DNA of 64,000 nucleotides from an uncultured Gemmiger sp. (GTDB taxonomy: Bacteria > Bacillota > Clostridia > Oscillospirales > Ruminococcaceae): NCBI GenBank assembly GCA_944388245.1, contig CALXIA010000002.1, forward strand, positions 28,414-92,413. The letters are read 5' to 3'. The position numbers and the translations under genes were made by a program. This document shows positions 17,814 through 29,507 of the stretch, one piece after another (the stretch's first letter is position 1; every line of letters starts with the position of its first letter). A model generated the notes under the pieces. That model did not search any database. It was given only the letters and a program-made list of their open reading frames with translations, and was not told the DNA's origin.

Positions 17814-19142
17814 ATGGCTTCTAAAACTTTTGGCAAAGAGCAGATCCTTGCATCGTTTTTTGACGAAGGCGCCTACTCGGTCCTGTTTGCCCGCAGCGCG
17901 GTGAGTGCCGCGTTTGGCAGTGCGAACGGGCAGCCGGTGTATGCCATTTGTCAGGACGGTGAGGCCGTTACCGTGGCCGACGTGGACAAGTGCGTCAAGG
18001 TGCTGGATATGGCCGCCAAGACCGGCAACCCGGTGGTCACCTTCTACGATTCTACCGGCGCCTGCCTGTCCGAGGGGCTTGCTGTGCTGACCGCGCAGGC
18101 CCGCTGGGCGGAGAAGATCGCCCAGATCTCCGGCGTTGTGCCTCAGCTGGCGGTCGTGACCGGCGTGTGCGGCGCTTCCAGCGCGCTGGCCGCCGCCGCT
18201 GCCGATGTGTGCATTGCCGCCGAGGGCTGCGAGATCTTCTTCACCGCGCCCTTCACCAGCGCCGCCGCCGGCGATAAGGTGGAAGGCGCCGGCTCTGCGG
18301 AACTGGCCGCCAAGGCCGGTGTGGCCGCTGTCGTGGCCAAGGATGGCGCGGAGGCCGTTTCTCTGGCTGCCCGCCTGGTGGCTATGCTGCCTGCCAACAA
18401 CCTGTCCGCTCCCGCTATGTTTGATATGGCCGAACCCGCTGCCGCGCTGGATCTGAACAAGTACACCGCCGCCGGCGCCGCCGCCGCTGTGGTGGACGCG
18501 GACAGCGCTGTAGAGCTGTTCGCCGGTTTCGGCAAGAATGTGTATACCGCTCTGGCCACCGTGGCCGGCAATCCGGTGGGCGTCGTGGCCACCGAGCCGG
18601 GCACCCTGTGCCATGTCTGCGTTTCCAAAGCCGCCCGCTTCGTGCGCCTGTGCGACGCTTTCAGCCTGCCGGTCGTGACCCTGGTCAACAGCGAGGGCTT
18701 TACCGCTTCGGTCAGCGAGGATGTGGCCGGCGCGATCCGTGAGGCCGCCCGTCTGGCCGGCACCTACGCCGACGCCACCACCGCCCGCGTGGCGGTGCTC
18801 ACCGGCAAGGCGGTGGGCCCGGTGTATACCGCTCTGGCCAACGCCGATTTGACCATCGCCCTGGAGGGCTGCACCGTGTCCGCTGTGGACCCGAAGGTCG
18901 CGGTCACCGTTCTGTATAAGGACGAGCTGGATGCCAGCGACAACATTGTGAAAGCCACCGCCGCCAAGGCTGCCGCCTATGCCGCCGAGAATTGCGGCGC
19001 CGACGCGGCTCTGAACGCCGGTGTGGCCGACTTTGCCGTGGCCCCGGCCCAGCTGCGCGGGACCCTGGCCGCCGCGCTGGATATGCTGGCTACCAAGCGC
19101 ACCCAGCGCCTGCCCAAGAAGCACGGCAATATGGCGCTGTGA
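17814..19142 (+). CDS. Divergent acyl-CoA carboxyltransferase subunit (12S/MmdA-like)
   Basis: A 442-residue member of the crotonase-fold carboxyltransferase family that moves CO2 between biotin and an acyl-CoA. Two homologous halves are visible: residues ~20-215 (FYDSTGACLSEG, GVVPQLAVVTGVCGASSA, FFTAPF, AMLPANN) and ~235-440 (TLVNSEGFTAS, AVLTGKAVGPVY, LEGCTVSAV, RTQRLPKKHGNMAL). The canonical oxyanion motif DSGGARIQEG reads DSTGACLSEG, and the protein is about 75 residues shorter than classical MmdA, so it is a divergent type with unusually high Ala content. It heads the operon with a biotin carrier and a 5S-like subunit. The acyl-CoA substrate cannot be told. Confidence 0.82.
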   Translation: MASKTFGKEQILASFFDEGAYSVLFARSAVSAAFGSANGQPVYAICQDGEAVTVADVDKCVKVLDMAAKTGNPVVTFYDSTGACLSEGLAVLTAQARWAEKIAQISGVVPQLAVVTGVCGASSALAAAAADVCIAAEGCEIFFTAPFTSAAAGDKVEGAGSAELAAKAGVAAVVAKDGAEAVSLAARLVAMLPANNLSAPAMFDMAEPAAALDLNKYTAAGAAAAVVDADSAVELFAGFGKNVYTALATVAGNPVGVVATEPGTLCHVCVSKAARFVRLCDAFSLPVVTLVNSEGFTASVSEDVAGAIREAARLAGTYADATTARVAVLTGKAVGPVYTALANADLTIALEGCTVSAVDPKVAVTVLYKDELDASDNIVKATAAKAAAYAAENCGADAALNAGVADFAVAPAQLRGTLAAALDMLATKRTQRLPKKHGNMAL

Positions 19143-19194
19143 TCGCCCTCAACCGCTATACATGGATCGAACCGATTAAAAGGAGGCCATTCTC

Positions 19195-19572
19195 ATGAAA
19201 TACTACAATATTACCGTTAACGGCACCACCTACAGCGTCGCAGTGGAAGAGGCCGGCGGCGCCGCTCCTGCCGCCGCTCCCGTGGCCGCGCCTGCCGCTG
19301 CCCCGGCTCCCGCTGCTGCTCCGGCGGCCGCTCCTGCCGCCGCGCCCGCCGCGGCCGGCTCTGTCAAGGTGACCGCTCCCATGCCCGGCACCATCCTGGA
19401 TGTGAAGGTGGCGGCCGGCGCCTCTGTGAAGGCCGGTGATATTCTGCTCATCCTGGAAGCCATGAAGATGGAGAACGAGATCGTTGCCCCGCAGGACGGC
19501 ACCGTGGCCGGCGTGCATGTGAACAAGGGCGACAGCGTCAACTCCGGCGACCTGCTTGTGAGCATGAACTAA
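19195..19572 (+). CDS. Biotin carboxyl carrier protein
   Basis: A 125-residue carrier. Residues 1-20 form a short structured N-terminus, 23-55 are a mobile Ala/Pro linker, and 57-125 are the biotinyl domain with EAMKMENE; Lys91 is the biotinylation site. It carries carboxyl groups between the upstream carboxyltransferase and the downstream 5S-like subunit, corresponding to the 1.3S subunit of transcarboxylase or the gamma/biotin part of Na+-pump decarboxylases. AAAAGGAGG lies 8 bases before the ATG. The repetitive GCC/GCT linker codons should not be read as a repeat element. Confidence 0.95.
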   Translation: MKYYNITVNGTTYSVAVEEAGGAAPAAAPVAAPAAAPAPAAAPAAAPAAAPAAAGSVKVTAPMPGTILDVKVAAGASVKAGDILLILEAMKMENEIVAPQDGTVAGVHVNKGDSVNSGDLLVSMN

Positions 19573-19593
19573 GAGAAACGTGAGGTGAATCAC

Positions 19594-20994
19594 ATGGCAA
19601 AGCCTGTTAAGATTACGGAAGTCGCCCTGCGTGACGCCCATCAGTCGCTGATTGCCACCCGGATGACCATGGACGAGATGCGGCCTATCCTCCCCGCGAT
19701 GAACGAGGTGGGCTACTACTCGGTGGAATGTTGGGGCGGCGCGACCTTTGACGCCTGCATCCGTTTCCTGGACGAGGATCCCTGGGATCGTCTGCGCATC
19801 CTGCGCAAGGAAATGCCCGACACCAAGCTGCAGATGCTGTTCCGCGGCCAGAACATGCTGGGTTACCGTCATTACGCCGACGACGCGGTGGAATACTTCG
19901 TGCAGAAATCCGTTGCCAACGGCATCGATATCCTGCGTATCTTTGACGCGCTGAACGATCCCCGCAACCTGGAGACCGCCATCAAGGCGGCCATCAAGGA
20001 GAAGGCCCACGTGCAGGGCTGCATCAGCTATACCCTGAGCCCGGTGCACTCCAATGAATACTTCGCCAAGTACGCCAAGACCCTGGAGGAGATGGGCGCC
20101 AACTCCATCTGCATCAAGGATATGGCCGGCTTGCTGACCCCCTACGCCGCCTCGGAGCTGGTGAAGGAGCTGAAAGCCACCATCTCCATCCCGGTGGATA
20201 TCCACAGCCACTACACCTCGGGTCTGGCTTCCATGTCCATCCTGAAGGGCATCGAGGCCGGCGCGGATATCATCGACACCGCGATCAGCCCGCTGGCTCT
20301 GGGCACCTCCCACATGCCCACCGAGAGCCTGGTGGCGGCGCTGCAGGGCACCGAGTACGATACCGGTCTGGACCTGAAGAAACTGAACGTGGTGCGCGCG
20401 CACTTCGCCAAGCTGCGTGAGAAGTATCTGGCCAGCGGCCAGCTGAGCCCCAAGATGCTGGGCGTGGACGCCAACACCCTGCTCTACCAGGTGCCGGGCG
20501 GTATGCTGTCCAACCTGCTCAAGCAGCTGAAGGACGCCGGCAAGGAGGATATGCTGGACGACGTGCTGCAGGAGATCCCCCGCGTTCGGAAAGACTCCGG
20601 CTATCCGCCGCTGGTTACCCCCACCAGCCAGATCGTGGGTACCCAGGCGGTGTTCAACGTGATCCTGGGCGAGCGGTACAAGATGGTCACCAAGGAGTTC
20701 AAGGGCCTGGTGCACGGCGATTACGGCCGTACCCCCGCCCCCATCAGCGCCGAGTTCACCAAGCAGATCCTGGGCGACGAGCAGCCCATCACCTGCCGTC
20801 CGGCCGACCTGCTGCAGCCCGAGATGGAGAAGCTCAAGAAAGAGGCCGAGAAGTGGTCCATCCAGGAGGAGGACGCCCTCACCTACGCTATGTTCCCGCA
20901 GGTAGCGCCCAAGTTCTTCGAGACCCGCAACAACAAGCTGGCCGGTGTGGACGGCGACCATGTGAACTTCGCCAACAAGTCTCACCCGGTTTGA
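19594..20994 (+). CDS. Oxaloacetate decarboxylase alpha / pyruvate carboxyltransferase (5S-like) subunit
   Basis: A 466-residue protein of the carboxylase TIM-barrel family that exchanges CO2 between biotin and pyruvate/oxaloacetate. Metal and substrate motifs are intact: EVALRDAHQSL at residues 7-17, ECWGGATFDACIRFL, ICIKDMAG, DIHSHYTSG (two His metal ligands) and DTAISPLALGTS. A conserved carboxylase C-terminal domain follows, with no biotin domain of its own; the separate carrier gene upstream supplies it. ATG 19594 is chosen over the GTG at 19585 because GAGGTG falls at 19582-19587. It ends the operon before a double hairpin. Confidence 0.93.
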   Translation: MAKPVKITEVALRDAHQSLIATRMTMDEMRPILPAMNEVGYYSVECWGGATFDACIRFLDEDPWDRLRILRKEMPDTKLQMLFRGQNMLGYRHYADDAVEYFVQKSVANGIDILRIFDALNDPRNLETAIKAAIKEKAHVQGCISYTLSPVHSNEYFAKYAKTLEEMGANSICIKDMAGLLTPYAASELVKELKATISIPVDIHSHYTSGLASMSILKGIEAGADIIDTAISPLALGTSHMPTESLVAALQGTEYDTGLDLKKLNVVRAHFAKLREKYLASGQLSPKMLGVDANTLLYQVPGGMLSNLLKQLKDAGKEDMLDDVLQEIPRVRKDSGYPPLVTPTSQIVGTQAVFNVILGERYKMVTKEFKGLVHGDYGRTPAPISAEFTKQILGDEQPITCRPADLLQPEMEKLKKEAEKWSIQEEDALTYAMFPQVAPKFFETRNNKLAGVDGDHVNFANKSHPV

Positions 20995-21238: not shown

Positions 21239-21619
21239 TTACAGATCGATGGCCTCCAGGTCCAGATTCTCCAGAACCGGAAGCAGCTTGGTAACGCCGC
21301 AGGTAAAGAAGATCATTCGGATCACTTCGCAGATCTCATCCACCGAGGCGCCGTATTTCTGGGCCAGATTGGCATGCACGGTAAAGGTGGTGGTGGTGCC
21401 GGTGGCCATGCCGATCGCCATGACGATCAGTTCCCGGTATTTGCGGGGAATTCCCGTATCCGCCGCATTTTCCCGGTACTGATTCAAAAACATCTGCGCC
21501 AAATGCGGGTCGTTTCCCATCTGATGGTGGCTGTCCAGCAGCGTGCCGCCGCGGGCCTCTTTCAAAGCCGCCAGAATCTGCCGGCTCTGGGCCAGCTTGT
21601 CGGGATTTTCCTGTTTCAT
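21239..21619 (-). CDS. Carboxymuconolactone decarboxylase (AhpD-like) family protein without the CxxC pair
   Basis: A 126-residue all-helical protein. The family block is clear: KYRELIVMAIGMATG followed by a His (HANLAQKYGAS) and EICEVIRMIFFTCG. Peroxidase members have CxxC ahead of that His; here the stretch reads TTTFTVH, so the redox cysteines are missing and AhpD activity is unlikely. The one Cys near the end (FFTCG) is outside the motif. Its start lies only 3 bases after the stop of the truncated decarboxylase gene, with GAGG as ribosome site, so the two formed an operon. The reaction is unknown. Confidence 0.82.
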   Translation of the reverse strand: MKQENPDKLAQSRQILAALKEARGGTLLDSHHQMGNDPHLAQMFLNQYRENAADTGIPRKYRELIVMAIGMATGTTTTFTVHANLAQKYGASVDEICEVIRMIFFTCGVTKLLPVLENLDLEAIDL

Positions 21620-21622
21620 GAT

Positions 21623-22340
21623 TCAGGCCTCGTGTCCGTATTTCTTTTTCAGATAGTCCACCGCGATGGTGGGGAAGAGGGCATAGGTCAACACGTCCTC
21701 GTCGTTGTGAGCCAGATCCCAGATCTCCGCCTTGGCCTTTTCCCAGCCAGGTTCCAGAAGATCCGCCGGACGGCAGGTGATGGGGGATTCCCCCTCCAGC
21801 GCCCGCTTCATCAGTTCCGGTGCGATCTGGCCCGGCGGTGTTCCGTACATGCCGCGGCAGTAGTCCCGCATTTCCTTGCTCACCATCTTGTATCGCTGGC
21901 CGGTCAGCACGTTTGTGGTGGCCTGTGCGCCGCACATCTGGCTGCTGGGGGTGGCCAGCGGGGGATAGCCCATATCCGCTCGGATACGGGTCACCTCCTG
22001 CAGTACGTCGGGCAGGCGCTCCAGCGCGTTCATGGCGCGCAGCTGATTCTCCAGATTGGTCAGCATACCACCAGGGATCTGATGCTGCAGGCAGCCCACG
22101 TCCACCCCGATCAACCGGCTCTCATAGGCGGCGTACCGCTTGCGCATGTACTGAAACGCGGTATTCAGCGAAGCAAACTGCCCCACGTCGATGCCCGGGT
22201 CCCGCGGCGTGCCCTTCAGGCCGGCAACAAAGCTTTCAATGGGCGGGTGCCCCGGCCCCAGTCCCAGGCTGGAAACGCATACGTCCAGCCCGTCCACGCC
22301 GGCCCGGACCGCCTCCCAATAGCACATTCCCGCCGACACC
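21623..22340 (-). pseudogene. 5'-truncated oxaloacetate decarboxylase alpha / PycB-like gene
   Basis: The C-terminal ~240 residues of a second 5S-like subunit, homologous along its length to the intact copy at 19594-20994. Recognisable blocks: AGMCYWEAVRAGVDGLDV, SLGLGPGHPPIES, PGGMLTNLENQL, GYPPLATPSSQ, ITCRPADLLEP, EDVLTYALFP. The N-terminal ~210 residues, including LRDAHQS and the two-His metal site expected just before SAGM, are absent. Homology ends abruptly near 22340, where the opposite strand becomes nifJ. The open frame runs on to 22429, but that part is antisense nifJ. Either a real rearrangement or an assembly chimera. Confidence 0.85.
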
Positions 22341-24602
22341 GTCAGCTGCAAGTTCTGGGGCCTGGGGTCCGACGGCACGGTGGGCGCCAACAAAAACTCC
22401 ATCAAGATCATCGGTGACCACACCGGCAAATACGTGCAGGCCTACTTTGAGTACGACGGCAAGAAATCCGGCGGCGTCACCAGAAGCCACCTGCGGTTCG
22501 GGGATTCGCCCATCCGCGCCACCTATCTGGTGAGCAACGCGGATTTTGTGGCCTGCCACAACGAGGCCTATATCGGCAAGTACGATCTGACCGGCGATCT
22601 GAAGGACGGCGGCAGCCTGCTGCTGGCCAGCGAGTGGACCACGCCGGAGGCCCTGACCGAACATCTGCCGGCCGCCATGCGCCGGGACATCGCCCGCCGC
22701 CACATCCATCTGTATGTGATCGACAGCGTACATATCGGGGAACGGCTGGGCCTTGGCACCCGTACCAACACCATCCTGCAGGCCGCCTTCTTCAAAATCA
22801 CCGGCATCATCCCCATCGAGAAGGCCGTGGAGTACATGAAGGCCGCCATCGTCAAGAGCTACGGCAAAAAGGGCGAGAAGGTCGTCAACATGAACTACGC
22901 CGCCGTGGAGGCGGGCGTTCAGTCGGTGGTGGCGGTGGATGTGCCCGCGGACTGGGCCGACGCGCCGGACGCGCCTGCCGCCCCCGCGGTGAACAAGCCG
23001 CACTTTATCGAGAAGATCCTGGAGCCGGTCAACGCCATGAAGGGCGACAGCATCCCGGTGTCCGATTTCCTGCCCTATGTGGACGGCACCTTCCCGCAGG
23101 AGACCTCCAAGTGGGAAAAGCGCGGCACTGCCGTCAAGGTTCCCAGCTGGGACGCGAGCAAGTGCATCCAGTGCAACCAGTGCTCCTATGTGTGCCCCCA
23201 CGCCTCGATCCGGCCTTTCCTGCTGAGCGAGAGCGAAGTGGCCGGCGCGCCGGCGGGCCTGTCGGTGGCCGAGACCCGGCCCAAGGCCAGCGAGTACAAG
23301 TTCACCATGGGAGTGTCGGTGCTGGATTGCCAGGGCTGCGGCAGCTGTGTGAACGTCTGCCCGGCCAAGGCCATTGAGATGCAGCCGCTGCACACCCAGC
23401 TGGAGAAGGCCGACCAGTGGACCTGGCTGGACAGCCTGCCCCAGCTGCGCAACCCCTACGGCGTGGCTACCGTGAAGGGCAGCCAGTTCCAGGAGCCCCT
23501 GCTCCAGTTCAACGGCGCCTGCGCGGGCTGCGGCGAAACGCCCTACACCAAGCTGGTCGCCCAGCTGTTCGGGGACCGGATGTATGTGGCCACCGCCACC
23601 GGCTGCAGCCAGGTGTGGGCCACCAGCTTCCCCAGCTTCCCCTACACCAAGAACAAGGAGGGCCATGGCCCGGCGGTCTCCGGTTCACTGTTTGAGAACA
23701 ACGCCGAGTTCGGCATGGGCATCTATCTGGGGGCTGAGCAGCAGCGCAGCGCCCTGTACGGAAAGGTCACCGAGCTGATCGACGCCACCTCTGACGAGAC
23801 GCTGAAAGCGGCGCTGGAGGACTGGGTCAAGGCCTACGGGGACGGCGAAGCCAGCAAGGACGCCGCCCGGAAGGTCAAACAGGCACTGGCCGCTACCACC
23901 GACGACAGCGAACTGTGCGCCTGGGTCAAGGACCGCACCGAGCATCTGGTGAAAAAGTCGGTCTGGATGTTCGGCGGCGACGGCTGGGCCTATGACATCG
24001 GCTACGGCGGCCTGGACCATGTGATCGCTACCGGCGAGAATGTGAACCTGATGGTGTTCGACGCCGAGGTCTACTCCAACACCGGCGGCCAGGCCAGCAA
24101 GGCCACCCCCACCGCGGCGGTAGCCCAGTTCGCCGCCGCCGGCAAGCGCACCAAGAAAAAGGATCTGGGCACGATGGCCATGAGCTACCGCAACGTGTAT
24201 GTGGCGCAGGTGGCCATGGGCGCGAACCCCAACCAGCTGCTCAAAGCGGTGCGGGAGGCGGAAGGCTACAACGGCCCCTCCCTGATCATCTGCTACGCCC
24301 CCTGTATCAACCACGGCCTGCGCTGCGGCATGGCCGACGTGATGGGGGAGATGAAGCGGGCGGTGGAAGCCGGTTACTGGCAGCTGTACCGCTATGACCC
24401 CCGGCTGGCGGACGCCGGCAAGAACCCCTTCCAGCTGGACAGCAAGGAGCCTGTCGGCAGCTATCAGGACTTTTTGCGGGGCGAAGTGCGTTACTCCTCC
24501 CTGGAGCGCACCTTCCCCGAAGAAGCCGAGCGGCTGTTCCGGCAGAGCGAAGCCGAAGCAAAAGCCCGCTATGCCCAGTACAAACGGCTGGCGGAAGAAT
24601 AA
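22341..24602 (+). pseudogene. nifJ: 5'-truncated pyruvate:ferredoxin oxidoreductase (NifJ)
   Basis: The last ~750 residues of a normally ~1175-residue enzyme that oxidatively decarboxylates pyruvate to acetyl-CoA and reduces ferredoxin. Homology starts abruptly at CKFWGLGSDGTVGANKNS (from 22347); an in-frame stop lies at 22320. Missing are the pyrimidine-binding and transketolase-like N-terminal domains. Present are the CoA-binding middle region, two ferredoxin clusters (CIQCNQCSYVCPH and CQGCGSCVNVCPAKA) and the TPP-binding domain (ACAGCGETPY, GDGWAYDIGYGG). A GTG at 22380 could start a remnant but has no ribosome site. The original gene was surely intact in this lineage. It abuts a head-to-head truncated decarboxylase gene. 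Confidence 0.9.
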
Positions 24603-24614
24603 AGGAGGTCTACC

Positions 24615-25736
24615 ATGTCAACCTTTGTGGAAACAATGCTGGGCGCCCCGGCCGGACAACCGGCCCGGATCACGCCGGATCTGGTCGTGGTGAACGACGG
24701 GATCTGCCACACCGCCGTGGAGATGGCCGGCATGGTCCGCTCCCCGGCCAAGGTGCGGGTCATCTTTGACCACGACGTGCCCACCGGCCAGCCGGAGGCA
24801 GCCCGGGCGTTCGGTGAGATCCGCCGGTTCGCCAAATCCAACGGTATGCGGTTCATCCAGGCCCAGGGCGTGGGCTACCAGTATCTGCTGGAACAGGAGG
24901 TCCGCCCAGGCATGATCGTGGTTCAGGGCGGCAGCCACGCCTCGATCTACGGCAGCGTGGGGGCGCTGGGCATCAACGTCAGCGCCACCGAATTGGCCCG
25001 GGTGCTGGAACACGACTACTACAACGCCATTGTCCCCGAAACGGTGACCGTCCGGGTGGAGGGCACTCTGCCGGCAGGAACCACCATGATGGACGCGGCG
25101 ATGGTTTTCCTCAGTGACAACCCCTGCCTGGCGGGCAAGTCCGTGGAGTTTTCCGCCCCCACCCTGGATGCGCACCAGAAAGCGGTGCTCTGTTCCATGG
25201 CCTGCGAGACCGGCGCGTTCTGCGCGGCGGTGACCGACACTGAGGGCCGGGATGTGACCCTGGATTTGAGCCAGGTCGTGCCGATGGTCACCACCATGCC
25301 CTGCCCGAGCCGGGATGTGCAGAAGGACGCGGTGCGCCAGCCCAAAGAGGTGCTGCAGGGCATGAAGCTGCAGGCCGGCCAGATCGGCGGCTATACCGGC
25401 GGCACCATCGAGGATCTGCGTCTGGCAGCCTCCCTGATCGAGGGCAAGACTCTGGCCCGCGGCTTCCGGCTCACCATCGCCCCCGCCACCTCCGCCGATT
25501 ATCTGAAGGCCCTGGATGAAGGGCTGATCGAGCGGTTCATCGACTTCGGCGCCCAGATCAGCGCGGTGGGGGACCACAGCGTTGTCACCCAGGGCGCGGG
25601 GGTGATCGGCAAGGGGGAGAAATTGCTCACCACCGGTCTGTACACCTACGCCGGCTGCATGGGCGTGGAGGACAGCGAAGTATACACCGGATCGGTGCCC
25701 AGTGTCATGGCCGCGGCCGTGACCGGGCAGGTGTAA
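24615..25736 (+). CDS. Aconitase-superfamily protein lacking all Fe-S cysteines
   Basis: A 373-residue protein collinear with the large subunit of 3-isopropylmalate dehydratase (LeuC). Retained features: VVVNDGICH (25-32), IFDHDVPTG (50-58), the SH pair in GGSHASIYG (106-113) and the end of the fold (IEDLRLAASLIEGK, TIAPATSADY). The cluster ligands are gone: the GSCTNG of LeuC reads GGYTGG (258-263), and the HPCCGLCCG block reads AVGDHSVVT (317-325). The GEGICH histidine is also lost. It therefore cannot hold the usual [4Fe-4S] cluster. AAAGGAGG precedes the ATG, 12 bases after nifJ, and an intact LeuC-type domain is encoded immediately downstream. Probably a non-catalytic or repurposed partner. 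Confidence 0.75.
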   Translation: MSTFVETMLGAPAGQPARITPDLVVVNDGICHTAVEMAGMVRSPAKVRVIFDHDVPTGQPEAARAFGEIRRFAKSNGMRFIQAQGVGYQYLLEQEVRPGMIVVQGGSHASIYGSVGALGINVSATELARVLEHDYYNAIVPETVTVRVEGTLPAGTTMMDAAMVFLSDNPCLAGKSVEFSAPTLDAHQKAVLCSMACETGAFCAAVTDTEGRDVTLDLSQVVPMVTTMPCPSRDVQKDAVRQPKEVLQGMKLQAGQIGGYTGGTIEDLRLAASLIEGKTLARGFRLTIAPATSADYLKALDEGLIERFIDFGAQISAVGDHSVVTQGAGVIGKGEKLLTTGLYTYAGCMGVEDSEVYTGSVPSVMAAAVTGQV

Positions 25737-25745
25737 GGAGGCGGA

Positions 25746-27559
25746 ATGATGGAAACTGTATTTAGCGGTAAGGTCTGGAAATTCGGCAACGACATCGAAA
25801 CCGATACCATTATCCCGGGCAAGCGGGGCACCATCCCCACCATCGGGAGATGAAAAAGTACGCCTTTGAACTGCTGAAACCGGAGTTTGCCTCCACGGTG
25901 CAGCCGGGCGACATCCTGGTGGCGGGCACCAACTTCGGCTGCGGCTCCTCCCGGGAACAGGCGGCCACCGTGCTCTCGGGCAACGGGGTGCGCTGCATCA
26001 TCGCCAAGAGTTTTGCCCGCATCTTCTTCCGCAACGCCTTCAACTCCGGCATCCTGCTGATCACCTGCGACGGCATTCGGGATGTGTGCGAGGGCGGGGA
26101 CATGGTCACGGTGAACCTGGACACCCATCAGGTCCAGGCAAACGGGCACAGCTTTTCCTTCGGGGCCATCCCGGAGAACCTGCTGCAGATCGTGGAGAAC
26201 GGCGGCCTGATCGAGGACACCAAAAAGCGGGTGGCGGCCGGGCTGCATCCCAGCCCCTGCCAGAAGCTGGACGAGACCGCCCGGCGCAAAAAGGGCTTCA
26301 CCATGGCGGAAAAGCTGCTGCGCAACAACGCCGGCGTGGACGCGATCAAGCCCGGCGACATCGTGATCACCCATCCGGATATGTTCATGATCCACGACAT
26401 CTATACCCCCTATCTGCTGGACACCCTGCAGAAGATGGGGGTGGAAAAGATCGCGGATCCGGATAAGGTCACCATCATCTTTGATCACTGCATGCCCACC
26501 GCTGTGGCCAAGAACGATTCCGCCCACTACGACGCCGGCCTGGCGCTGAGCGACAAGTACGGCATCACCAAGCTGCATGTGGGCGAGGGCATTTGCCACA
26601 GCATCATGCACGAGATGCGGTGCGCCAAACCCGGCGAGGTGGCCACCGCCACCGACAGCCACACCATCACCTACGGCGGCGCGGGCAACTTCTGCAGCGG
26701 CATCGGCACCGCCGAGATGGCGGCGGCCCTGGCCACCGGGGAACTGTGGTTCAAGGTGCCGGAGGCGATCAAGATCGTGCTGAACGGCCATCTGCCCGAC
26801 GGGGTGCTCAGCAAGGACGTGATCCTGAAGATCCTGGGCGACATCAAGGCCGACGGCGGCCAGTACAAGAGCCTGGAATTCACCGGCCCCGCCGCCCATG
26901 AGATGAGCATGCTGGCCCGGTTCACCGTATCCAACATGGCGCTGGAGGCGGGCGCGAAATGCGGCCTGTTCGAGGCGGATGAAAAGACCGCCGCCTACTA
27001 CGATATGCCGCTGAGCGAGATCGACTGGGTCTGCGTGGACGAGGATGCCCACTATGAAAAGGTTCTGACCTATAATGTGAATGAACTGGAGCCGCAGCTG
27101 TCCTGCCCGCAGGGAGTGGACAACGTGCATCCTATCAGCGAGGTGGTCGGCACCCCCATCGACGAGGTCTACCTGGGCAGCTGCACCAACGGCAACCTGG
27201 AGGACCTGGCCATTGCCGCCCGCTATATGAAGGGCAAGCATGTGCCGGACGATATGCGGTTCATCGTGGTGCCCGCCACCAACAAGGTGTACAAGGACGC
27301 GATCCGCCTGGGATATATCCGGATCTTCGTGGAGGCCGGCGCGGTCATCAGCCATCCCTGCTGCGGCTTGTGCTGCGGCATGCCCTATGGCCTGATGTAC
27401 GATGACGAGCGCATCCTCTCCACCGCGAACCGGAACTTCATTGGCCGTCAGGGCACCAAAAAGACCCTGAGTTATCTGTGCAGCCCCGCCGTGGCCGCCG
27501 TGACCGCCCTGACCGGGCGGGTGGCCGATCCCCGGGACTTTGCGACCGAGGATGTGTGA
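25746..27559 (+). CDS. LeuD-LeuC fusion dehydratase, interrupted by a frameshift at ~25845
   Basis: Encodes an aconitase-type hydro-lyase in which the small swivel domain precedes the large cluster domain in one frame. The first 35 codons (from ATG 25746, METVFSGKVWKFGNDIETDTIIPGK) are LeuD-like and end at TGA 25851 after a frame change in the GGG at 25845-25847; the frame then continues from 25850 (MKKYAFELLKPEFA, TNFGCGSSREQA). The LeuD part ends near 26300 and LeuC begins at MAEKLLRNN (26303) without a stop between, giving a 569-residue frame. LeuC motifs are intact (DSHTITYGGAG, GSCTNG, HPCCGLCCG). Substrate unknown: isopropylmalate, citramalate-like or dimethylmalate-like acids are possible. 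The frameshift may be a sequencing or assembly error. Confidence 0.8.
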
Positions 27560-27571
27560 GGTGTTGTATCT

Positions 27572-27976
27572 ATGCTGAAAAACTTTGAACAGATGAAGGA
27601 GATGCTCCGGGCAAAGCCGGTCAAGCGCCGGGTGGCGGTGGCGACGGCCCAGGACGAGCACACGCTGCAGGCGGTGGTCGCCGCCGCCCGGGACGGGCTG
27701 GTCACGCCGGTCCTGATCGGGCAGGAGGCCAGGATCCGGGAACTGCTTGACGGTATGGAATTCGACGCCCGGCAGGCGGAGATCCTGAACGAAGAGGACC
27801 CCGCGACCTGCGCCCAGATCGCCGCCGACCTGGCCCGGGAAGGCAAGGCGGACTGCATCATGAAGGGCAAGCTGGAGACCGGCACCCTGATGAAGGTGCT
27901 GGTCAACCGGGAGCGGGGCATCCGCAAGAACGACGTGATGAGCCTGGTGGCCTTCTTTGAAAGCCCCTATTACCAC
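27572..27976 (+). pseudogene. ptb: 3'-truncated phosphate butyryltransferase
   Basis: The first 135 residues of a normally ~300-residue enzyme that converts butyryl-CoA and phosphate to butyryl-phosphate. Recognisable: RRVAVATAQDEHTLQAV, TPVLIGQE, ADCIMKGKLETGTLMKVLVNRERGIR, VMSLVAFFESPYYH. After that point the frame becomes unrelated (QRRHPHPGLGRD) and stops at 28096, while another frame takes up the end of a metallo-beta-lactamase-fold protein. The lost C-terminal half contains most of the phosphate and CoA site, so the product as written is non-functional. Its partner buk follows at 28407. Confidence 0.85.
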
Positions 27977-28376
27977 CAACGACGGCACCCGCATCCTGGT
28001 CTGGGCCGGGATGACCTCGCCGGACCAGAAACACCGGCTGGCAGGGCTGTGCCCGGATATCGCGCTGATGCATGTAAGCCCCAAACAGGACTTTGAGGAG
28101 TTCGCCGCCCTGAACGCGGCGATCGGCTCCAAGGTAGTGATCCCGCACCACTACGATTTTACCGAAAGTTTTTTCAAGGCGGTACCTGCCGCGCTGCAGG
28201 ATATGAGCGAAGAGAACCGCCGGCTGTTCGTGCGGAATGGCGAGTTTGATTTTGCCGCCTATATGCGGGCACTGGAAGAAGCCTGCCGCCGCAAAGCCCC
28301 CGGCATGGCGCTGCTGACGCCGGAACACCACAAATGGTACTGGTTCGGCTTCTGCGCCTCCGGCCCTCTGGAATGA
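27966..28376 (+). pseudogene. C-terminal fragment of a metallo-beta-lactamase-fold hydrolase
   Basis: About 135 residues in the +1 frame relative to ptb: ITTNDGTRILVWAGMTSPDQ, LCPDIALMHVSPKQDFEEFA, KVVIPHHYDF, PEHHKWYWFGFCASGPLE. The pattern, with a late PHHYD histidine pair and a TNDGTRIL segment, matches the tail of MBL-fold metal hydrolases of the UlaG type. The HxHxDH metal site of the N-terminal half is missing. The join to ptb falls in AGCCCCTATTACCACC (27961-27976), which can be read in both proteins. No ribosome site serves this frame. Confidence 0.7.
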
Positions 28377-28406: not shown

Positions 28407-29507
28407 ATGAAGATATTTGCCATCAATCCCGGTTCCACCTCCACCAAGATCGCCCTGTTTGAGGACGACAAGATGGTGTTCAGCCGCAATGTGTCCCACG
28501 ACGCGGAGGAGCTGAAAAAGTTCAAGGAGATCCGGGATCAGTTCCCCTACCGGAAAGAGACCATTCTGAAAGAACTGGCCGAAGCCGGCCAGACCCTGGA
28601 GGGCACCGACGCCTTTGTTGGCCGGGGCGGCGGGCTGGTGAACATTGTCGGCGGTACATACACGGTAAACGACAAGCTGCTGGAGCACGCCCGCATCGGA
28701 TTCACCGTCAAACATCCCGCCACACTGGGCGCGCAGCTGGCCTGCGATTTTGCCCAGACATACGGCGGTCAGGCGTTTGTGGTAAATCCCCCGGACGTGG
28801 ATGAGTTCTGCGACGAGGCCCGGGTCACCGGCCTGAAAGGGGTGTACCGGGAGAGCAAGATCCACGCGCTGAACCAGAAGGAGATCGGTATCCGCTATGC
28901 GGCCGCCCACGGGAAAAAGTATGCCGACATGAACCTGATCATCTGCCACATCGGCGGCGGCATCTCGGTCACCGCCCATCAGAAGGGCAAGATGGTGGAT
29001 TCCAACGACATTGCCCAGGGCGACGGCCCGATGGCCCCCACCCGCTGCGGCGCCCTGCCGGTCAAGGATGTGGTAAAAATGTGCTTCTCCGGCCAGTTTA
29101 CCGAGCGGGAGATGTACGACAAGATCACCAAGACCGGCGGCCTGGTGGACCATCTGGGCACCAGCGACGCGCGGCAGGTCAGCCGCATGATCGAGCAGGG
29201 CAGCGCCTACGCCAAGCTGATCTACGACGCCATGATCTACCAGATCGCCAAGACGGCGGGCAGCATGGCCGCGGTGCTCTGTAGCCAGGTGGACGGCATT
29301 GTGCTCGCCGGCGGGATTGCCCACGACGAGTACCTGGTGCAGCAGCTGACCCGCCGGCTGCAGTTTATCGCTCCCATCACCGTGATGGCCGGCGAGTTTG
29401 AGATGGAGGCGCTGGCCGCCGGCGCCCGCCGGGTGCTGCTGGGAGAAGAGCCCGCGCTGGAGTATACCGGTAAGCCGGTCTGGAGCGGGTTTGACACCAG
29501 CCTGTGA
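28407..29507 (+). CDS. buk: Butyrate kinase
   Basis: A 366-residue acetate-kinase-family enzyme making ATP and butyrate from butyryl-phosphate. It shows the sugar-kinase/Hsp70 fold motifs: FAINPGSTSTKIALF at the start, FVGRGGGL, HPATLGAQLA, ICHIGGGISVTAH (phosphate loop) and DGIVLAGGIAHDEYL (adenosine). GAAAGGAG precedes the ATG. It lies 30 bases after the MBL fragment and normally pairs with ptb, which here is truncated. The next gene starts 12 bases after its stop. Butyrate formation is an inference from family knowledge; branched acyl-phosphates are possible substrates. Confidence 0.95.
   Translation: MKIFAINPGSTSTKIALFEDDKMVFSRNVSHDAEELKKFKEIRDQFPYRKETILKELAEAGQTLEGTDAFVGRGGGLVNIVGGTYTVNDKLLEHARIGFTVKHPATLGAQLACDFAQTYGGQAFVVNPPDVDEFCDEARVTGLKGVYRESKIHALNQKEIGIRYAAAHGKKYADMNLIICHIGGGISVTAHQKGKMVDSNDIAQGDGPMAPTRCGALPVKDVVKMCFSGQFTEREMYDKITKTGGLVDHLGTSDARQVSRMIEQGSAYAKLIYDAMIYQIAKTAGSMAAVLCSQVDGIVLAGGIAHDEYLVQQLTRRLQFIAPITVMAGEFEMEALAAGARRVLLGEEPALEYTGKPVWSGFDTSL

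Follow-up and report, generated by a model that had tools for sequence, protein, structure and literature searches.

The cfLeuC locus and its operon

The window analysed here, meaning the whole stretch of 64,000 nucleotides, encodes a cluster-ligand-free LeuC/HacA-type protein that we call cfLeuC. Orthologues are present in Gemmiger sp. An120 (G001, NZ_NFLN01000019.1; 86% identity) and in G380, a genome from another genus of the same family (59% identity), and a more distant, short paralogue is found in the genome G069. The gene lies among the following features of the window.

21239..21619, minus strand: carboxymuconolactone decarboxylase (CMD) family protein; comparable genes are found close to the loci of An120, G380 and G069
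21623..22429, minus strand: PycB/OadA-type protein, C-terminal half in the ORF, broken off at the junction 22325-22327
22380..24602, plus strand: pyruvate:ferredoxin oxidoreductase (PFOR), C-terminal 740 aa; the N-terminal part is absent here (1169 aa in An120)
24603..24609, plus strand: ribosome-binding-site-like AGGAGGT, in the 12-nt gap (24603..24614) from the PFOR stop to the cfLeuC start
24615..25736, plus strand: cfLeuC, 373 aa, by ORF, family and alignment evidence
25746..25853, plus strand: start of the LeuD domain; the frame stops at 25851-25853 and differs from that of the remaining LeuD-LeuC
25850..27559, plus strand: remainder of the LeuD-LeuC fusion, 569 aa, of the 'type B' clade, with the three cluster cysteines and catalytic motifs present
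27572..28096, plus strand: phosphate butyryltransferase (Ptb) as first part of the ORF, cut at the junction near 27976
27957..28376, plus strand: C-terminal fragment of a metal-dependent-hydrolase-like protein, matching the An120 gene, with a weak family match
28407..29507, plus strand: butyrate kinase, 366 aa (TIGR02707, 435.4 bits; cut-off 289.1)

The gene order in An120 and G380 is PFOR, cfLeuC, LeuD-LeuC, Ptb, 2HCT transporter, butyrate kinase and LeuB-like dehydrogenase, with a LacI-type regulator, a PycB/OadA-type protein and a CMD-family protein on the other side; some of these neighbours were identified by family scan in one genome and by similarity in the other. An120 has an extra metal-dependent-hydrolase-like gene between the transporter and butyrate kinase (40.6 bits; cut-off 144). 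The LeuB-like dehydrogenases score 299.4 and 309.3 bits with TIGR00169 (leuB), under the cut-off of 353.2. As the host genome encodes an ordinary LeuC and LeuB elsewhere, on contig C24, the module is probably dispensable for leucine synthesis; the assembled part of the genome holds no closer LeuB.

The small CMD-family gene (window 21239-21619, minus strand; L036 5061-5441; L067 14577-14987; L073 5875-6264) is found at the cfLeuC loci and at the G069 locus. Further upstream in the window, at 17814-20994 on the plus strand, carboxyltransferase, biotin-carrier-like and OadA/PycB-type genes lie in a row, with the second, truncated PycB-type gene alongside on the opposite strand.

Two stretches present in An120 are missing from the window. 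One, of about 3.5 kb at 22325-22327, holds the start of PycB, the LacI gene and the N-terminal portion of PFOR; the other, of about 2.5 kb at 27966-27976, holds the end of Ptb, the 2HCT transporter and the N-terminal half of the hydrolase-like gene. Both deletions are flush, with gene fragments fused across them, and LeuD is one base short near 25845, breaking its frame. The remaining five indels in the aligned stretch comprise four intergenic ones and one in-frame indel of 3 nt. The damage may be real erosion or an error of the draft assembly, which is 75.3% complete and in 64 contigs. The initial annotation had called the LeuC-type neighbour intact and an active dehydratase, a description that does not hold for this window given that the start of LeuD is out of frame in the assembly.

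Residues, orthologues and selection

cfLeuC matches the Pfam family Aconitase (PF00330; E 7.8e-31, 108 bits, above the cut-off of 28.7) and no other Pfam family at E 0.001; a better match to a different cluster-free family, the alternative raised in the initial annotation, was thus not found there. Its scores with the NCBIfam models NF001614 (E 2.8e-53, 181.1 bits) and TIGR02086 (176.7 bits) fall under the curated cut-offs of 385 and 410. The best solved relatives, 4kp1, 4nqy and 4kp2 (E 1.3e-32 to 2e-28), are large subunits of isopropylmalate/citramalate isomerase and homoaconitase. As first noted by eye, cfLeuC and the LeuC part of the downstream gene are collinear: of 417 aligned positions, 107 are identical (26%; pairwise E 3e-25), and the alignment spans cfLeuC residues 3-373.

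For residue comparison we use mitochondrial aconitase numbers, of which Cys358/421/424, Asp165, His147, His167 and Ser642 are named in PMC8184944. The counterparts of Cys358, Cys421 and Cys424 in cfLeuC are Y260, D320 and V323. GSCTNG has become GGYTGG, and the CxxC segment reads AVGDHSVVT, with Asp320 and Val323 in place of its two cysteines. The GEGICH histidine is also lost (QGVGYQ), leaving Y88 at the His147 position. These changes, together with retention of the FDHxxP and SH motifs, had been reported from the initial look and are borne out residue by residue. Two further changes had been missed: the Asp of DSHT is lost, with G106 at the Asp165 position, and NRNFxGR, which we take to bind substrate, is replaced by LYTYAGC, placing L342, Y343 and C348 at the positions of Asn446, Arg447 and Arg452. 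Of the set formed by Asp-His (100/101), Asp-Ser-His (165-167) and His147, Asp52-His53 (FDHDVP) and Ser107-His108 (GGSHA) are kept, and the counterparts of Asp165 and His147 are lost. For positions 100, 101, 258, 262, 446, 447 and 452, numbering and residue roles follow the usual assignment for the family. Given the known chemistry of the family, cfLeuC is unlikely to be an aconitase-type dehydratase.

Both orthologues lack the same residues; at the cluster positions An120 has Tyr/Asp/Val like the window and G380 has Phe/Asp/Val. A lone mutation or sequencing artefact, with homologues that bear the cysteines, had been named as the result that would undo the initial reading, and is ruled out by the losses in both orthologues. 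In an alignment of 71 rows, from which identical or contained sequences had been dropped beforehand, these three proteins lack the cysteines and the other 68 keep all three. Of 41 newly added rows, 38 span the sites and all 38 keep the cysteines; the other three are cut short where their DNA ends. The proposal that homologues always lack the cysteines therefore stands for the orthologous trio and fails for the distant homologues (tandem LeuC-A and the G069 short paralogue), which keep them. The companion proposal, that the pair is always adjacent, agrees with what was found, as a LeuD-LeuC with cluster ligands adjoins cfLeuC in all three genomes having it.

Further members were sought in overlapping sets of 61 relatives and of 396 family, 394 order, 391 class, 4 genus and 35 G380-genus genomes. 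No fourth member scored above ordinary LeuC in these sets, where a divergent member with a lower score could be missed. After the trio, the family genomes gave 156.9 bits at best; a different profile gave 178.4 bits in the order genomes and 256.7 in the class genomes, and in each case the cysteines were present. No match at E 1e-55 was found in two of the four genus genomes or in 34 of the 35 G380-genus genomes. Contigs of named genomes gave a single relative, Gemmiger sp. An120, with two short peptide patterns that may have missed others, and four scans of viral contigs gave none. Plasmids gave 323 matching records, all below 60% identity; the best eight of the 323 comprise six on genes annotated as LeuC-type and two on no annotated gene. 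Among the open-access literature matches listed, judged by titles and abstract openings, none concerned a LeuC-type protein without cluster ligands.

Purifying selection on cfLeuC, for which dN/dS had been put forward as a check, is shown by the comparison below. Values are NG86 dN/dS for window against An120, window against G380 and An120 against G380, in that order; dS is near saturation, so the ratios are rough, and YN00 values exist for the window/An120 pair only.

cfLeuC: 0.096/0.852 (about 0.11); 0.393/0.948; 0.380/1.461
LeuC part: 0.034/0.832; 0.089/0.978; 0.089/2.04
PFOR part: 0.050/0.850; 0.248/0.794; 0.238/1.357
Butyrate kinase: 0.034/1.006; 0.144/0.794; 0.129/1.216

cfLeuC is constrained, yet it is the fastest-evolving of the four genes compared. 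As its frame is open in all three genomes and its dN/dS is about 0.11 against An120 (higher against G380, where dS is near saturation), cfLeuC does not bear the marks of a pseudogene of LeuC.

The former active site is also better conserved than the remainder of the protein. Between the window cfLeuC and that of G380, 77 of 98 positions are identical in ten alignment windows, which were picked after the alignment had been inspected, against 141 of 275 elsewhere; two of 372 circular shifts reach 77 identities. With the original ten alignment windows unchanged, the counts are 72/96 and 147/280 (3/375 shifts). Cysteine-bearing control pairs show a similar contrast, with 84/96 and 85/96 inside against 205/332 and 211/332 outside for LeuC-A, and 85/96 against 193/321 for LeuC-B. 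The contrast is weaker for the LeuD-LeuC pair (90/96 against 292/349; 16/444 shifts) and for the G069 short paralogue against the window cfLeuC (31/95 against 62/252; 35/346 shifts). The cfLeuC pocket is thus maintained, and catalysis and binding fit this conservation equally.

These data bear on whether the gene is a decaying relic. On that view the A enzyme became redundant once LeuD-LeuC-B was fused, LeuC-A is on its way out by drift, and the whole operon is already eroding in the host. We consider this improbable. The two deletions and the LeuD frameshift in the window assembly would fit it, as would the missing matches in the two genus-level sets and a cfLeuC dN that exceeds the LeuC-part value about threefold against An120 and more than fourfold against G380. 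However, the frames are open and constrained, and drift would be expected to strike the abandoned active site first, the very region that is more conserved than its surroundings.

The tandem LeuC-A/LeuC-B module and the origin of cfLeuC

In phylogenetic trees the LeuC part of the window groups with the 'type B' LeuC of other genomes (clade support 100/99). In 11 genomes (G067, G166, G235, G239, G288, G333, G337, G374, G1054, G947 and G1289, the last with its B gene cut by a contig end) a second type, LeuC-A, lies directly upstream of LeuCD-B. G292 has the two types on separate contigs, its B copy at a contig start. cfLeuC occupies the LeuC-A slot, directly upstream of LeuD-LeuC. Close relatives of the An120 LeuD-LeuC (more than 1200 bits) occur in exactly the three cfLeuC genomes among the 396 family genomes, the next score being 646.7; at E 1e-130 or better the matches extend to 13 of the 396, namely the three cfLeuC genomes, G069, eight resolved A/B tandems and G292. 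These data suggest that the A and B dehydratases form a paired module.

In a tree that excludes three long rows, cfLeuC joins LeuC-A with support of 95/91. When the G069 short row is included, the grouping has 84/91 and is not starred, and the full set leaves it unresolved. Profile scores with types A and B are 182.5/148.6 bits for the An120 cfLeuC, 192.3/171.8 for that of G380 and 182.6/155.4 for the G069 short paralogue. Beyond the class, one of 199 phylum genomes has a clearly higher-scoring type-A protein (G1289, 682.3 bits; next 499.6). Local duplication of the neighbouring LeuC was rejected as the origin by the AU test (p 0.0136), which leaves standing cfLeuC with the B clade (p 0.357), with the TGG group (0.107) or with ordinary LeuC (0.0553). 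Given the LeuC-A slot and the tree that joins cfLeuC to LeuC-A, the protein that lost the iron-sulfur cluster had probably once been an active partner of LeuD-LeuC.

The tandems themselves are found at L114 6839-10580, L115 8611-12110, L068, L069, L070, L071, L075, L076 and L137, with A upstream in the 11 resolved genomes. By the look of the sequences, the L115 tandem lies beside ilvD/ilvC/ilvB-, leuB- and leuA-like genes. Among the open-access literature matches listed for tandem leuC genes, we found no explanation for a division of labour between A and B.

The short LeuC paralogue of G069 (L073:7230-8309; INTERMEDIATE) is a stand-alone protein of 359 aa whose gene immediately precedes a type-B LeuD-LeuC fusion. 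The three cluster cysteines are present in it, and the Asp and Ser of DSHT are lost (GVHA); QGxxY and GGxTGG are common to it and the cfLeuC trio. A possible series of steps would lead from tandem LeuC-A with all residues, through the G069 protein with cysteines and altered acid-base residues, to the ligand-free trio. As a lead, this single sequence on a very long branch of unsure place in the tree suggests that acid-base remodelling preceded cluster loss. The gene appears to share an operon with genes of the CMD, ketopantoate-reductase and DHDPS types and with those for fumarase-type subunits.

Possible roles of cfLeuC and comparison with known systems

cfLeuC is a genuine, rare and selected variant in a known superfamily and more than a degenerate copy; its function we infer from sequence. 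It probably has a new role, either supporting or catalytic. The initial annotation had proposed a cluster-free paralogue retained beside a dehydratase. This much stands, as the gene is under selection and adjoins a ligand-bearing LeuD-LeuC in each of its three genomes; an active neighbour in the window, where LeuD is out of frame, does not.

Our favoured reading, to which we give somewhat less than an even chance, is that cfLeuC descends from a LeuC-A that gave up both its Fe-S site and its own LeuD, and that it has been retained to partner LeuD-LeuC, binding a ligand without acting as a dehydratase. It is favoured on account of the pairing with LeuD-LeuC, the probable descent from the tandem-module partner and the conserved, remodelled pocket. 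The operon would import a 2-hydroxydicarboxylate such as citramalate or another 2-alkylmalate via the 2HCT transporter, and LeuD-LeuC would isomerise it. The LeuB-like dehydrogenase would carry out oxidative decarboxylation of the isomerised acid, PFOR would turn the 2-oxoacid into an acyl-CoA, and Ptb and butyrate kinase would yield ATP. This pathway draws on established enzyme families; the substrate we infer. The operon suggests an acid-fermentation route in gut bacteria, as yet unassigned. Least certain, cfLeuC might assemble with LeuD-LeuC through its aconitase fold, in line with the three-domain complex put forward in the initial annotation, and its remodelled pocket might bind a pathway metabolite, making it a structural or allosteric subunit and not an Fe-S dehydratase. 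Counting against a partner role are its faster evolution relative to its neighbours, the mere three members and the broken operon of the window assembly. AlphaFold2 models built with few sequences had pLDDT values of 43.0 and 37.5, too low for use.

Less probable, though worth serious attention, is that cfLeuC is a new enzyme in which an aconitase fold without Fe-S catalyses a different step of the operon, for example an epimerisation, lactone opening or lyase reaction of the imported acid. Its site might then be made up of Asp52-His53, Ser107-His108 and Asp320-His321/Cys348, the last of these newly fixed, and a mononuclear metal might take part. The altered pocket is more conserved than the remainder of the protein, Asp320, His321, Cys193 and Cys348 are invariant in the trio, and the gene has its own ribosome-binding-site-like sequence and sits among catabolic enzymes. 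Aconitase X also departs from its family at both the cluster and substrate sites, according to PMC8184944. However, the pathway read from the neighbouring genes leaves no apparent gap to fill. Nor does cfLeuC have a dedicated LeuD-type domain, the presumed source of the family's catalytic serine (Ser642 of the mitochondrial enzyme). More speculative still, and rather doubtful, is the scenario that, of two dehydratases in one module, one lost its cluster secondarily on the LeuC branch and became an enzyme that works without it. Asp320-His321 and a pocket rich in tyrosine would form its new active site, serving the fermentation of an alkylmalate-type acid in gut Oscillospiraceae. A selected LeuC-type protein without cluster ligands and with a conserved pocket would reveal the scope of the scaffold without them.

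In PMC8184944 a catalytic Fe-S cluster is given as a feature of the aconitase superfamily. Aconitase X (cis-3-hydroxyproline dehydratase and mevalonate 5-phosphate dehydratase) has altered cluster and substrate sites relative to the aconitase family and holds its cluster on different cysteines, with Cys273 of AtAcnX at the His147 position (PMC8184944). It is similar to cfLeuC in belonging to the superfamily with both sites altered and differs in keeping the cluster. By analogy, a relocated Fe-S cluster or metal could be bound by the trio-invariant cysteines 171, 193, 197, 230 and 348, making the term cluster-free wrong. Three of these five (171, 230 and 348) align with no Cys in LeuC-A, and Cys348 replaces Arg452. 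However, each of the five LeuC-A rows has Cys193 and two of them have Cys197, so that neither is new; the old site has no CxxC or CxC, and Tyr88 stands where aconitase X has Cys. We give this reading only a small chance. That cfLeuC is itself an aconitase X we reject, given that tyrosine at the His147 position and the match to PF00330 only.

AcoB of Aspergillus is an inactive Aco2-type aconitase that is transcribed and keeps virtually all active-site residues, as reported in PMC3556520; loss of activity is invisible in the AcoB sequence, unlike in cfLeuC. The paper also describes two fungal aconitase-family enzymes that split the two halves of homocitrate isomerisation (PMC3556520).

The G069 short paralogue is like cfLeuC in being short, stand-alone and upstream of a type-B fusion, in the loss of the DSHT Asp and in having CMD nearby; it differs in its retained cysteines, 28% identity and fumarase-type dehydratase and ketopantoate-reductase-type neighbours. 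With the LeuC/HacA large subunits (NF001614, TIGR02086, TIGR01343; PF00330) cfLeuC has in common a collinear fold, FDHxxP and SH, and the PAT and GVIG-type segments. Unlike them, it is about 40 residues shorter and has no LeuD of its own (the neighbouring LeuD being fused to the other LeuC); it also has other residues at the three cluster-cysteine positions, at those of His147 and Asp165, and in place of NRNFxGR. The best match by both profile and tree is the tandem LeuC-A of Oscillospiraceae and other Bacillota (G288, G166, G1054, G947 and others), which has the NDG, DH..P and GVIG..E signatures in common with cfLeuC but, at 30-32% identity, has all cysteines and catalytic residues and its own LeuD-A.
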